Source: Cepaea nemoralis (taxonomy: Eukaryota > Mollusca > Gastropoda > Stylommatophora > Helicidae). From it: DNA of 64,000 nucleotides. Position numbers and translations under genes: made by a program. How positions within the stretch are numbered: the first letter of the stretch is position 1; every line of letters begins with the position of its first letter. Location: NCBI GenBank assembly GCA_014155875.1, contig JACEFZ010018169.1, positions 231,501 to 295,500 of the forward strand, given 5' to 3'. Of the stretch, positions 2-63,339 are shown in pieces. Below the pieces are notes generated by a model, which did no database searches, had not been told where the DNA came from, and worked only from the letters and a program-made list of their open reading frames with translations.

Positions 2-361
2 AGTTTGATGGTAGATGGGCGTAGTGTCACAGGCAAACCCTTAACCATGAATTATACCACAGGTCAGTATGCGCGAGCTTTCCATGGTACCAATTTGGCC
101 CTCGGTCTGACCGGTAAGGATGTCGGGAATGGTATCAATTTTGAGAGTTTCAGTCAAGGGTTCGCTCTGTACGCTTTTGATCTGACTCCCAGTATATTAG
201 ACGGTGAGCAGTTTGAACTGGCCAAATCCGGTCCACTGTCACTGGAACTTAAGTTTGCCGTTATAACGGATGCACCTCTACAAGTCATCATATACGCGGA
301 ACTCGATTCGGTTCTAGAAATTTCCAAGACAAGGCAAGTGCTGACCGATTACGTAGCATAA
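2..361 (+). CDS. F54H12.2-like Polinton protein, C-terminal fragment
   Basis: An open frame enters from the left edge, so the start is outside the window; a methionine at 8 is probably internal. The 119 visible codons match the C-terminal end of the family annotated as 'uncharacterized protein F54H12.2-like', with recognisable blocks around YAFDLTPS, IIYAELDSVLEI and the terminal RQVLTDY. The family belongs to Polinton-type elements and is thought to be virion-associated; I do not assign it as major or minor capsid protein. The stop TAA shares one base with the ATG of the protease gene, suggesting coupled expression. The visible frame has no breaks. Confidence 0.8.
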   Translation, partial: SLMVDGRSVTGKPLTMNYTTGQYARAFHGTNLALGLTGKDVGNGINFESFSQGFALYAFDLTPSILDGEQFELAKSGPLSLELKFAVITDAPLQVIIYAELDSVLEISKTRQVLTDYVA

Positions 362-855
362 TGGATACCCAACACCTAAGACAGTTACTCATGTCTGACC
401 CGTTTGTTCGACGCCTTTCGCTAGTCAACGTCTGTGCTAGAGATCAATTGCCTAGACACATTGATAGAACACAACCAGCCGCTTTTATCGTCAACACCGA
501 CACCAGTGTTTACTCTGGGTCACATTGGATCGCCCTATATTTCGATGGCCTAGGTCAGTTTGAATATTTCGATTCGTTTGGTTTGCCGCCATTACACGCC
601 GACATTATCCGCTTTATACGACGTAACTCGGACCAATCACCTATGTACAATACCCGTATGTTACAAGACATCAATAACGCCACTTGCGGGCTGTACGCCC
701 TGTATTTTCTGGTGATGAAATGCCGCGGCGCGAGCCTGTCGCGTATCCTGCAGCCGTTTGGTCACAGACAACACGTGAATGACCGCCTCGTGTTTCGATT
801 GGTTAGCCCGTGGTTGAAAAAGACAAGTCCAGACACGTTTAAAATCAATCGATAA
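361..855 (+). CDS. Adenain-type cysteine protease (peptidase C5-like) of a Polinton element
   Basis: A 164-residue ORF about the size of adenoviral protease. Visible catalytic elements, in family order, are a His in GSHWIALYFD (about residues 54-63), an acidic residue in the FEYFDSFG block (about 69-76), and the nucleophile Cys in NNATCGLYALYF (about 103-114). In adenoviruses this enzyme processes capsid and core precursors; Polintons carry a homologue thought to do the same. The start is the ATG overlapping the upstream stop. All expected catalytic residues are present and no break is seen, so the gene looks intact, though expression is unknown. Confidence 0.85.
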   Translation: MDTQHLRQLLMSDPFVRRLSLVNVCARDQLPRHIDRTQPAAFIVNTDTSVYSGSHWIALYFDGLGQFEYFDSFGLPPLHADIIRFIRRNSDQSPMYNTRMLQDINNATCGLYALYFLVMKCRGASLSRILQPFGHRQHVNDRLVFRLVSPWLKKTSPDTFKINR

Positions 856-917
856 ATTATGTCCTATAAAACGAGACGAACTGACCACCTTCGTGTTTCG
901 TGCCCACCACCCTCAAG

Positions 918-1370
918 ATGTCTACAGCTACCTGGATATTCATGTCAAGAACTGCTGAAATGCCCAGACCACTAGCCAACGGTTTGAAAGCGGCGACAGT
1001 TTCTCAATACCGAGGCACTACGACTCTCCATTTACGCAAGTATTTCGGTGTCTCTGAGCTCAAGTACCCGACCAAGGTGGGAATTACACTCACGAGAGCC
1101 GAGTTTGAGTCTCTCCTATCAATGAAGGATGACATTCTAGCGGATTTCGATAAACTAACTTACCAACCACCCGAGGTGTCTAGTAAAGACCAGGCTACCT
1201 ACACTCAAGACCCCGTGACGTTTTATCAAGACCAGTCTACCTACAACTTAGACGTACCAGATCCGCCCACCTATGACTACAGTCAAGACATGCCACTGAA
1301 TGACCAGACAGCTTTCTACAGTAATCAAATCCCGCTGATCCCTTTGGGACGTAAACGACGCAAGCTTTAG
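918..1370 (+). CDS. PC4-like single-stranded-DNA-binding domain protein of the Polinton end
   Basis: Residues about 27-65 (RGTTTLHLRKYFG, then KYPTKVGITLTRAEFESLL) resemble the PC4/p15 fold: a beta strand, a basic KxPTKxGIxLT turn and the following helix. The rest is a low-complexity Asp/Gln/Tyr/Pro-rich tail ending in a basic cluster, GRKRRKL, that could be a nuclear signal. The ATG at 918 is chosen because it is the first in frame; a frame without an ATG extends upstream to about 900. PC4 proteins bind single-stranded DNA and act in transcription or replication. That this protein serves the element is inferred from position only. Confidence 0.55.
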   Translation: MSTATWIFMSRTAEMPRPLANGLKAATVSQYRGTTTLHLRKYFGVSELKYPTKVGITLTRAEFESLLSMKDDILADFDKLTYQPPEVSSKDQATYTQDPVTFYQDQSTYNLDVPDPPTYDYSQDMPLNDQTAFYSNQIPLIPLGRKRRKL

Positions 1371-2479: not shown

Positions 2480-4588
2480 TCAAGTGCCGTGCCCGCTGGC
2501 GTAGGCGTTCGTGGCTCTCCATAGATCTCGGTCTTTGGTTTTCTGGATCAACTCTGCTGCTGATATTCCTCCATGCCACCTTCTCAATCCATCCAGCATC
2601 ACTTCTCTTGGTCTATCTCTGCCTCTCTTCCCCTCGATCTTTCCAGTTGTTACGATGTTCTCCAAAGCCTCTCTTCTCATCACATGACCGAAGAAAGCTG
2701 TTTGTCTCCGTCTTATTGTTGTATATAATGTTCTAGTTTCGTTAGCCTGTTTCAGGCAGTCGTCGTTAGTTACTCTGGCAGTCCAAGGAATTCGCAACAT
2801 TCGTCTCAGGAACCACATCTCTGTTGCTTCTAATTTCTTCTTAATTTGTTCATTTACATTCCAAGATTCACTGCCATACAGCAAAACTGGTTCTACATAG
2901 CATTTCAGCACTCTCTTTCTTACATTCAGTGATAGTGACTTATTGCATAAGATACTCTTCATTTTCTGAAATGCGGCTTTTGCCTGCCCTATTCTGCTCC
3001 TAATCTCTGTTGTACATCTTCCATCTGATGTTATAAATGCCCCTAGGTATCTAAAATTATCAACTTGGTTAAGGATTTTCCCTTCTATTTCTATGTCACA
3101 TTTTGGTGTCACCATTTTCTTTGATATTACCATTGTTACTGTTTTCTTGATATTCAAGGAGAGTCCTTTCCTTGCACTCTCTGTTACTACAACGTCTAAT
3201 AATTGTTGTAGGTCTGTTGAATTATCCGCCACCAATACTGTGTCATCTGCATAGCGTATATTATTTATATTATAACCTCCAACTAGTATTCCTGGCATCT
3301 CTTTGATCTCTCTCATTATTACTTCGCTATACAGGGAGAAAAGATCTGGTGACAAGACACACCCTTGTCGTACTCCTAGCTTTATCTGTTCGTAACTACC
3401 CTCTTTATTTCCCATTTTAATTGCTGCTACTTGGTTCCAGTAAATATTCTTTATTATTCTTAAATCTTTTCCATCAGTGTTGATATCTTCCAACATTTTA
3501 ATCAGTTCATCATGTTTTACTTTATCAAATGCCTTAGTATAATCTATGAAGCACAAATATATGTCTCTCTGTTTCTCTATTGACCTTTCTATTAGTGTCC
3601 GCAATGTATAAATTGCATTGTTTGTGCCCTTTCCTTCCACAAATCCATACTGTTCTTCACTAATTTCCATTTTTATTTTCTTTTTGGTTCTTCTCATTAT
3701 GATTCTGAGTAGAAGCTTAGTGATATGGTTTATAAGGTTAATTGTACGAAAATCTTCACAATCAATTGCTCCTGGTCTTTTTGGTATAGCTATAAATACA
3801 GATTTCAGCATATCACTGGGTAAATATCCACTGCTGTAAATATCATTCAACATTTTGGTTAATATATCTACTCCAAATTCTCCCAATACTTCTAATTCTT
3901 CTATTGTGATTTCATCTGGCCCAGCTGTTTTTCCTTTCTTCATACGTTTCATAGCGTCAGCGACTTCTTCTTTCAGAATAGGTGGACCTTCTAAGTTACT
4001 ATCTTCTGTTAATTCTGCCCTTTCTCCTTCATATAATTCTCTTATATACTCATTCCACCTCTTCATTATAGCATCTTCCTCTAATATTATCTTTCCTGTT
4101 TTTGATTTCAAACACCCTGTATTTATTCTTATTTTTTTTCCTGTAAGCTCACTGATTTGTCTGTGCATATTTTTTGTATCTTTAATGGAATTTAATTCAA
4201 TTTTTTTGCATTGCTCGTTTAACCAACTTTCTTTAGCCTTCCCACATTTATCTTTTATTTCTTTATTTATCTTAGCGTATTCTTGTTTGTCATTTTTACA
4301 CTGTTTTCTTTTGTCCATCAGTTTTAAGATTTCTTCATTCATCCATTTTTTCTTAGCTATTTTGCCTCTCTCCGGTAATACTTCTTTGCTAGTTTGATGA
4401 ATGGAGTCCCTTAACATTTCCCATTGTTCATCTATACTCTGTATTTTAGTTATTGCATTGTACCTATTTTTCACAGTCACTCTGTATTGTTCTTGCATTT
4501 CTTTATCTATTTTCAGAACCTCTTTATTAAGTCTCATGTTCTTAACCATTTTTTCCCTCTCTTTAATCTTACTTTTATTTGTCCACAT
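2480..4588 (-). pseudogene. LINE-A reverse transcriptase region
   Basis: A 702-residue open frame. The fingers/palm region has the conserved FIDYTKAFDKVKHDEL (motif A, about 348-363), GVRQGCVLSPDLF (motif B, about 405-417) and RYADDTVLVAD (motif C, about 445-455). The C-terminal third carries the usual post-RT blocks, WNVNEQIKKKLEATEMWFLR and a basic KRGRDRPREVMLDGLRRWHG stretch, and ends in GHGT-stop at the repeat tail. The catalytic aspartates are present and no internal stop occurs. It is called a pseudogene because the start is only an internal methionine created by a frameshift against the endonuclease ORF. Confidence 0.85.
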
Positions 4589-5406
4589 AGTGGTACATGA
4601 TCACTATTACAGTCAGCACCAGGCATTGTCTTTACATTAATTAAAGCATTTCTAAATCTTTTATTAATTAGTATGTAGTCAATTTGGTTGCGTATTTTCT
4701 TATCAGGGCTTATCCATGTGTACAGTCGTCTTTTATGGTGTTTAAACCATGTGTTTCCAATTATCATATCATTGATATTTGCCCATTCTATTAGCTTTTC
4801 CCCTCTTTCATTTCTTGTACCTAAACCATAATTCCCCACTACATCCTCCATTTTTCCCTTTCCTACTTTTGCATTAAAATCACCAATTATTATCTTTATT
4901 TCTTGTGATCCAATTTGAGCCATCACCATTTCTATTTCGTCGTAAAAGTGTTGTATTTCTTCATCACTACTGCTTGCTGTTGGTGCATATACTTGTATAA
5001 TATTTATGTCTATTGGTTTGCCTTTGATTTTTACCATAATAACTCTATCTGAAATACACCAGTATCCATTAATTGACTTGGCTGTTTTTTCGTCTAATAT
5101 TATTCCTACACCTTTTTCATGTGTATCCCCTCCAGAATAAATTATTGTGTGATTGTCAGCTATAATTTTGCCCGATCCCTTCCATCTCATCTCACTAACG
5201 CCTAGTATATTCATTTTCATGCTATCCATCTCTCTTAGAACATTGGTCAACTTTCCTAGCTCATTTAATGTCCTAACATTCCATGTTCCTACTCTAAATT
5301 TATTTATTTTAGTTAAGATTTTGCCATCAGTAGATGGATGACGGTCTGGTGTCACCTGTGGCTCATGACTGTCCCTACCGGACGAGGATGCCCTAAGTAC
5401 AGCCAT
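4534..5406 (-). pseudogene. LINE-A endonuclease domain (EEP family)
   Basis: A 290-residue frame with the order of an APE-type retrotransposon endonuclease: FRVGTWNVRTLNE at about 38-50 (Asn of the first motif), ILGVSEMRW (catalytic Glu) at about 68-76, IIQVYAPTASSSDEE, then IIIGDFNAKVG (Asp/Asn) at about 173-183 and NSDHVPLCG (terminal Asp-His) near 268. It nicks target DNA to prime reverse transcription. It overlaps the RT frame by 55 bases in a different register, so the fusion protein is broken by one indel near the A-run around 4540. Confidence 0.85.
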
Positions 5407-5584
5407 TAACGTCCTTCACTAACTTTGATATATGTTTTGCCATGAAGTCTTGGGAAGATAATGTGGTGGTTTCCCCTTGCCTTCCACATTCACATGGTGG
5501 TCTTTTTACCTCTGCCTTTGACAGCCATTTCCGACTGTAAGGACAAGTGAGTGCCCTGCCCTGCTCAGCTGCAGAGTTGTCCAC
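5393..5584 (-). other. Short Cys-containing ORF at the LINE-A 5' region
   Basis: A 63-codon frame just upstream of the endonuclease contains LTCPYSRKWLSK followed by PPCECGRQGE, a loose Cys-rich pattern. It may be a degraded N-terminal zinc-finger part of the LINE polyprotein. Nothing more can be supported. Confidence 0.3.
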
Positions 5585-6542: not shown

Positions 6543-61528
<54,986 letters not shown>

Positions 61529-61699: not shown

Positions 61700-61975
61700 G
61701 TGCCATAAGTAAAAAAGTAAAGGACCCTTTTACTTGTCGTAAGGTTCATAGAGCGTTTCATGTTACACCCATATTTTAAAAAATAAACCAATCATGTCTC
61801 ATGGAGTATCGCGGTCAATATTACACAGGACTTCACTTTCCCAAGACATTTCATCATACTTATTTTAGGCTGGGTCAACTTTGGAGCACAGGTCAATTTA
61901 AAAAAATCCATGTTAATGCAGATTTGAATTCATAACCATCAGACCAACAATCAAGCGTCCAACCACTATGCTATT
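61700..61975 (-). repeat. tRNA-derived SINE family S1, head end expanded
   Basis: The minus strand reads A box 'tagcatagtggttggac', B box 'gatggttatgaattcaaatc', S1 body 'aaagttgacccagcctaaaa' and end 'gggtcctttacttttttact'. The A-box side runs directly into the 21-bp array. Confidence 0.8.
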
Positions 61976-63124
61976 GTGTCCAACCACTATGCTATTGTGT
62001 CCAACCACTATGCTATTGTGTCCAACCACTATGCTATTGTGTCCAACCACTATGCTATTGTATCCAACCACTATGCTATTGTGTCCAACCACTGTGCTAT
62101 TGTGTCCAACCACTATGCTATTGTGTCCAACAACTATGCTATTGTGTCCAACCACTATGCTATTGTGTCCAACCACTATGCTATTGTGTCCAACCACTAT
62201 GCTATTGTCCAACCACTATGCTATTGTGTCCAACCACTATGCTATTGTGCCCAACCACTATGCTATTGTGCCCAACCACTATGCTATTGTGCCCAACCAC
62301 TGTGCTATTGTGTCCAACCACTATGCTATTGTGTCCAACCACTATGCTATTGTGTCCAACCTTTATGCTGTTGTGTCCAACCACTGTGCTATTGTGCCCA
62401 ACCACTATGCTATTGTATCCAACCACTATGCTATTGTGTCCAACCACTATGCTATTGTGTCCAACCACTATGCTATTGTGTCCAACCACTATGCTATTGT
62501 GCCCAACCACTATGCTATTGTGTCCAACCACTGTGCTATTGTCCAACCACTATGCTATTGTATCCAACCACTATGCTATTGTGTCCAACCACTATGCTAT
62601 TGTGTCCAACCACTATGCTATTGTGTCCAACCACTATGCTATTGTGCCCAACCACTATGCTATTGTGTCCAACCACTGTGCTATTGTAAAGTCCAACCAC
62701 TATGCTATTGTGCCCAACCACTATGCTATTGTGCCCAACCACTATGCTATTGTGCCCAACCACTATGCTATTGTGCCCAACCACTATGCTATTGTGCCCA
62801 ACCACTATGCTATTGTCCAACCACTATGCTATTGTATCCAACCACTATGCTATTGTGTCCAACCACTATATTATTGTGTCCAACCACTATGCTATTGTGT
62901 CCAACCACTGTGCTATTGTGTCCAACCACTATGCTATTGTGTCCAACCACTATGCTATTGTGTCCAACCACTATGCTATTGTGTCCAACCACTGCTATTG
63001 TGCCCAACCACTATGCTACTGTGCCCAACCACTATGCTATTGTGCCCAACCACTATGCTATTGTATCCAACCACTATGCTATTGTGCCCAACCACTATGC
63101 TATTGTGCCCAACCACTATGCTAT
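61955..63124 (-). repeat. 21-bp tandem array of a SINE A-box segment, about 55 units
   Basis: The unit on the minus strand is CACAATAGCATAGTGGTTGG plus A; its core TAGCATAGTGG fits the RNA polymerase III A-box pattern TRGCNNAGYNGG. Variants include T/C changes and a few 18-base or expanded units. As 21 is divisible by three, all frames stay open (for example MLLCPTT repeated); these are not genes. The array begins about 430 bases after exon 24. Confidence 0.95.
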
Positions 63125-63339
63125 CGTGACTTTCTGGTGAATATGGTAAGACCAAACGACACGTTGAGAAGCTCTAAGCAAATTAGAAACTGAAATATAA
63201 TAAATATTAAACAAGATTACAATTTAACAATTAAGATATGTTGGGTGTATATTGTGCTGCTGAATACAATACTAGATTGAAATATGGAAAACAAACATGC
63301 ACGAGGAAAACAGCAGTTTAAATTAGAAGGTGACAGCAA

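Follow-up and report, generated by a model that had tools for sequence, protein, structure and literature searches.

A SINE in the window (the whole 64,000-nucleotide stretch of Cepaea nemoralis DNA that was analysed) carries 1.2 kb of tandemly repeated RNA polymerase III (Pol III) A boxes within its own head. The array is very probably a SINE-derived minisatellite (VNTR), which would have arisen by local duplication in the A-box head of one old SINE, followed by turnover. A second version of the locus holds three times as many copies, and A-box arrays also occur at other SINE heads in this genome.

Structure of the A-box array

The array consists of 56.0 head-to-tail copies with a period of 21 bp (Tandem Repeats Finder, TRF; 93% matches, score 2016; Table 1), values that place it among minisatellites or VNTRs, whose head-to-tail units measure about 10–60 bp. 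An initial sequence-only reading had described some 55 A boxes over 1.2 kb (61955..63124), which is borne out by the 56 units found. Cut at the A box, the array gives 56 unit starts, a count that includes the SINE's own A box; 51 units are 21 bp long, four are 19 bp and one is 24 bp. The commonest unit type accounts for 21 of the 56, and the site most often changed in this version is A16 (16 of 51 units).

The exact motif TAGCATAGTGG is present in 46 of the 56 units and absent from 10, so the earlier statement that every intact unit carries it holds for the 46 only. The looser A-box consensus TRGYNNARNNG is fitted by 53. With up to two mismatches allowed, TAGCATAGTGGTTGG is found 55 times in the window, 54 of these within the array and one at 27039-27053, against a mean of 0.17 in shuffled versions of the window. 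A second tRNA-like head, TGGCATAGTGGTTAGTACACCTGCTTACC, is seen at 27020-27080; a short tandem repeat with 21-bp units (26973-27035) comes directly before it. Plus-strand frames are open through the array (407 aa); they were rejected as evidence for a gene, since a stop-free 21-bp unit stays open at any repeat number.

Table 1. Features of the array-bearing SINE and its surroundings (window positions unless stated otherwise).
Feature	Position	Strand	Basis and remarks
Tandem array, period 21, 56.0 copies	61957..63128	-	TRF and unit list; minus-strand unit TAGCATAGTGGTTGGACACAA
Whole SINE including internal array	61707..63134	-	Alignment with 24 family copies; ends by eye; 3' end at tail AAAAGGGTCCTTTACTTTTTTACTT
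SINE 5'-terminal ~11 nt, beyond far side of array	63124..63134	-	Shares a few bases with the TRF interval
SINE's own A box TAGCATAGTGG	61963..61973	-	
Degenerate B-box core TTCAAATC	61921..61928	-	
T7 run, candidate Pol III stop	61900..61906	-	14 bp past B-box core
Diverged region between versions	61700-62000 and beyond 63128 (C16840 about 294629-297000)		Includes gaps of 247 bp and 640 bp
Exon-like stretch, AG/GT ends, upstream of array in host-gene direction	61394..61528	+	By eye
Nbas_N-domain open frame; NBAS as candidate host gene	29417..29869	+	Pfam PF15492, E 2.8e-24

The host SINE and the place of the array

The alignment consensus of the family has the layout GGGAGCTGTGG-TAGCATAGTGGCTAG...GGTTCAAATC (B box)...body...GGGTCCTTTACTTTTTTACTT; with the A box TAGCATAGTGG and the B box GGTTCAAATC in its head, it is a tRNA-derived SINE. 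The earlier name 'S1' was the sequence-only reading's own label and is not used here as a family name. The alignment comprises 24 copies (20 fetched genome places and the window) plus both versions of the array-bearing SINE; matches below 35 bits or starting late in the head were left out. Seven more related copies lie within the window (nhmmer, E below 1e-4), and of 746 whole-genome candidates 40 were scored, all of which matched, the window locus among them. The SINE is dispersed without an A-box array, as full-length copies such as that at 12764-13042 in the window illustrate. Divergence from the consensus of the other copies is 21.5% for the window SINE and 20.2% for its second version; the 24 copies span 15–39%.

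Pol III stops at T runs, and one such run follows the B-box core of the window copy (Table 1). Its B box reads AATTCAAATC, with AA replacing the GG of the family consensus. The earlier statement that only the adjoining SINE keeps a B box needs a correction: the 21-bp unit has none, and the SINE's own is degenerate. Inspection of the SINE flanks by eye revealed no target-site duplication. The SINE had no match in phage or viral collections; Rfam (at gathering scores) and ARAGORN (for tRNAs) also gave no match.

The repeat derives from the SINE: its unit aligns to the SINE head, and the SINE's head, body and tail continue from the array. The unit had been called identical to the A-box portion of the SINE, which proved too strong; 18 of its 21 letters recur in the SINE's own copy, TAGCATAGTGGTTGGAC being followed by GCTT in the SINE and by ACAA in the unit. 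At the far side of the array, the second version has 11 nt ahead of its first unit, GGAAGCCATGA, of which 7 match the SINE 5' end GGGAGCTGTGG and the remainder are transitions. Scored against a profile of 17 heads, this 11-mer is matched or surpassed by 0.04% of window 11-mers; this likeness was noticed before scoring, and the register was set by the array edge. The homologous 11 nt of the window, GAAAGTCACGA, fit the SINE 5' end less well (4 of 11; 3% of 11-mers score likewise). At three other loci (L079, L080 and L088), GGGAGCGGCG, GGGAGCCGC and GGGA precede the first unit, by eye again a SINE 5' end before an array.

A SINE 5' terminus at the far side puts the array within the SINE head, behind the 5'-terminal ~11 nt, and not next to the element as had been proposed. 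Read from the sequence, the order is 5' terminus, array, own A box, degenerate B box, body and tail. The proposal that the array grew from a SINE head is well supported: the unit is head sequence, and SINE ends stand on both sides.

A second version of the locus

The window lies on contig C16840 of the 3.47-Gb assembly (26579 contigs), and contig C24302 bears the locus in reverse orientation. The two are colinear, with 99.3% identity at both far ends compared and 99.3–99.5% beside the SINE on the exon side. The array has 167.8 copies (3.5 kb) on C24302 against 56.0 (1.2 kb) in the window, exact numbers hinging on the assembly. No run of five unit types is common to both versions. The variant CATAAAGG makes up 51 of 167 listed units in the long version and 1 of 56 in the window, and one 19-unit block occurs twice in the long version. 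The threefold length gap and the unrelated unit order fit the unstable minisatellite suggested by the sequence-only reading, and the window array is probably a fast-turnover VNTR, its two versions being presumed alleles.

Divergence extends beyond the units themselves. Of 260 aligned SINE sites, 19 differ between the versions. Past the far edge of the array, the first 2 kb show 1–18 mismatches per 100 bp, plus gaps, after which the alignment fails; on the exon side, past 400 bp, there are 0–3 per 100 bp. This contrast across the array puts it at the edge of a diverged block.

The two contigs probably represent haplotypes, that is, alleles of one locus, as judged from their sequences. This simple picture is somewhat complicated by the intervening 10-kb stretch (L063), which is broken up and only 94.7–96.5% identical between the versions; on this evidence, C16840 and C24302 may instead stem from a recent duplication.

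A-box arrays elsewhere in the genome

The window's exact unit pair occurs 60 times genome-wide, always on C16840 or C24302. A satellite would have one homogenised unit at many loci; here both contigs bear the same locus, so the array is not a generic satellite. A loosened motif, TAGCRYAGTGGYTRG twice, gives 826 pairs at a gap of 2–25 and 585 at a gap of 2–21 in the whole genome, against none for the reversed pattern at either setting. Among the matches listed, A-box arrays are found on at least 19 further contigs, and one stretch was fetched from each; outside these 19 stretches, C143 and C3285 each bear a further array and C5323 a further pair. Basic periods of the 19 range from 19 to 47 bp, and array size from 4.3 units (L088) to the 167.8 of the long version. 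Periods and spacers mostly vary by locus, the exception being L077 and L082, with a period of 28 and nearly the same spacer.

The SINE begins at the 3' end of the array in 12 of the 19 (E below 1e-5) and, weakly, in two more (E about 0.003). No SINE match was found beside the array in the other five fetched stretches, two of whose arrays run off the fetched end. The sequence-only reading had proposed looking for A-box expansions at other SINE copies, and such expansions are present. It had also held that a generic satellite found without SINE flanks would speak against a SINE origin; the confinement of the exact pair to one locus counts against such a satellite, while the five arrays with no SINE in view lean the other way.

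Is the A box special?

The genome searches suggested the A box as a hot spot for arrays; a control with a SINE-body motif of equal length tempers this. That motif forms 48 pairs, spread over 15 contigs with 26 in a single array, and none when reversed. Per exact single copy, pairs (gap 2–21) are more frequent for the A box (585/8085, 7.2%) than for the body motif (48/2848, 1.7%), but these rates are rough because the singles include the arrays themselves. Pair-bearing contigs per 1000 singles number 5.3 for the body and at least 2.4 for the A box (19 contigs), or about 4.8 if the 17 contigs among the matches listed are extrapolated by contig number. Thus, relative to its single copies, the body motif has arrays on about as many contigs as the A box does, and these counts do not mark out the A box as special. 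Contigs with more than one pair are 12 of 17 for the A box (among the matches listed) and, counted in full, 5 of 15 for the body; A-box arrays may be the larger ones, a difference short of significance (Fisher p 0.074).

Body segments form arrays of their own. One stretch (L005, C21832:13573-16718) has 38-bp units at 1-229 and 1090-1509 (6.2 and 11.1 copies), C104 has a body array with regularly spaced singles, and the SINE at 43237-43481 (-) in the window contains a two-copy 70-bp internal tandem duplication of its body. SINE segments in general hence act as array seeds. The window also holds a 41-bp tandem array at 54890-55305, with 10.1 copies in both locus versions; it resembled a SINE head by eye, a reading dropped as the SINE model gave no match at E 10.

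On a bolder reading, the tRNA-type promoter head would itself be a recurrent generator of minisatellites, perhaps with local duplication provoked at the A box by transcription or by Pol III factors; this would leave scattered arrays of tens of A boxes able to titrate TFIIIC or mark chromatin. We consider this reading unlikely.

Pol III function

In principle, the array could be a working one: its dozens of A boxes would bind TFIIIC or further Pol III factors and serve, within the host gene, as a weak promoter cluster, a decoy or a chromatin boundary. The 53 units that fit the loose consensus, the SINE with A box and degenerate B box at the array end and the genome-wide recurrence of A-box arrays are all in keeping with such a role. 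The B box contributes most of the affinity for TFIIIC. Separate TFIIIC subcomplexes contact the A and B boxes, according to the available portion of PMC4490372. None of the 19 other A-box arrays yielded a match to a strict B-box pattern, and the one B box at the window locus, in the SINE, is degenerate; genome-wide, an A-box pair with a B box behind it (a stricter pattern) occurs at five places, two of which are the window locus.

In the long version, 51 of 167 units fail the loose consensus, and changes inside the box (T1 48, G8 53 and T9 53, each per 165 units) are as common as those at the commonest spacer site (A16, 46). A functional Pol III or TFIIIC cluster would have B boxes with its A boxes, or unchanged A boxes, and the array has neither. 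To judge from these counts, nothing suggests that the A boxes are maintained. Together, the A-box misses and the lack of B boxes in other arrays leave Pol III function, including the weak TFIIIC binding proposed at first, unsupported, and a working array is decidedly improbable.

Origin of the array

A neutral SINE-derived minisatellite is the best reading of the window array. An old SINE would have inserted first, and after insertion about 21 bp of its A-box head would have duplicated locally in tandem. Slippage, unequal exchange or gene conversion would then have expanded the array and turned it over, and the SINE's two ends still enclose it. The A boxes would have multiplied because they are located in the duplicated piece, which requires no role in Pol III transcription. 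Comparable expansion would have taken place at other copies of the SINE, mostly with different periods and spacers.

Alternatively, the SINE may have been mobilised with its tandem head already formed, much like mouse L1 with its promoter monomers, so that the array would be part of the mobile element. This would suit the layout of tandem heads followed by SINE at 12 of the 19 other arrays, but the exact unit pair is restricted to the window locus, periods and spacers are mostly locus-specific, and the SINE 5' end precedes the array both here and at three other loci. With the arrays masked, matches between flanks reached at most 226 bp and at most 83.4% identity, L077 contributing only 112 bp and L091 only 71 bp; this comparison covered pairs other than L077 and L082, the only two arrays alike in period and spacer. 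A mobile tandem head is accordingly very unlikely.

That the array or its length is an artefact of an assembly in so many contigs is more improbable still: two contigs place the array identically, with different unit make-up and diverged neighbouring sequence. A generic satellite, with the SINE inserted in or beside it by chance, would account for the five arrays with no SINE in view, but is scarcely credible for a unit that is SINE head sequence, whose exact pair occurs nowhere else and which has SINE ends flanking both sides.

Genomic context

The array likely lies in a transcribed intron. Another exon-like AG/GT stretch is seen by eye just before that listed in Table 1; neither matches a Pfam family. 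If these stretches belong to NBAS, the array is intronic and antisense. PDB matches of the listed stretch (designed SAKe proteins and one Kelch-like protein) were taken as chance.

Candidate mobile elements of other kinds are also present in the window. Adjacent frames at 253-1370 (+) contain adenovirus-type protease (Peptidase_C5) and PC4 domains (Pfam), a combination we take to be typical of Maverick/adintovirus-like elements. LINE-like open frames lie at 2480-5415 (-), 7444-11318 (+) and 49869-50306 (-). They were named by eye, except for the piece at 4534-5415, the one LINE-like piece scanned, which has an endonuclease domain (Pfam).

Comparison with known systems

Here a single genome offers many minisatellites seeded by one short SINE head, whose original sequence can be read from the family. 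This allows questions to be asked about how minisatellites are born, what determines unit length and whether promoter elements matter. As a genetic marker, the window array may be highly variable. Should the functional reading hold, A-box arrays would lend themselves to tests of TFIIIC binding where no B box is present.

Mouse B1 and human Alu are SINEs derived from 7SL. Both have given rise to minisatellites: PMC9659126 and PMC3389668 cite a mouse B1-derived VNTR family, unstable by its title (Bois et al. 1998), and minisatellites from human Alu (Jurka and Gentles 2006). These were seeded inside SINEs, as here; as far as the citing texts tell, their units differ and are apparently not A-box heads.

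The closest parallel is with the SINE-derived satellites (sSats) of squamates, described in the portions available of Vassetzky et al. 2023 (PMC10702118) as tandem SINE segments with separate origins from different SINE families. As in the window, SINE sequence continues at the array end; the number of sSat units differs at orthologous loci, a probable parallel to the two versions here. SINE termini on both sides of the repeats, as found here, are an uncommon sSat form. In contrast, sSat units measure 67 to 215 nt in the cases covered, and the snake unit includes box B, whereas units here are 19–47 bp with an A box and no B box. Long sSat loci tend to be subtelomeric, unlike the window array, which is in or near a gene.

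The monomers of the mouse L1 5' UTR are likewise tandem promoter pieces at the 5' end of a retroelement. In the descriptions available, they act as Pol II promoters and belong to the element as a matter of course; the units here are mostly locus-specific.

A-box minisatellites of this sort were not found in the open-access literature, within its partial coverage. SINE-derived tandem arrays as such are already known from squamates, mouse B1 and human Alu, on the portions of those sources available. What sets the present arrays apart is that a single genome has, at many loci, short units restricted to the A-box head of a tRNA-type SINE, and that two versions of one locus differ threefold in copy number.
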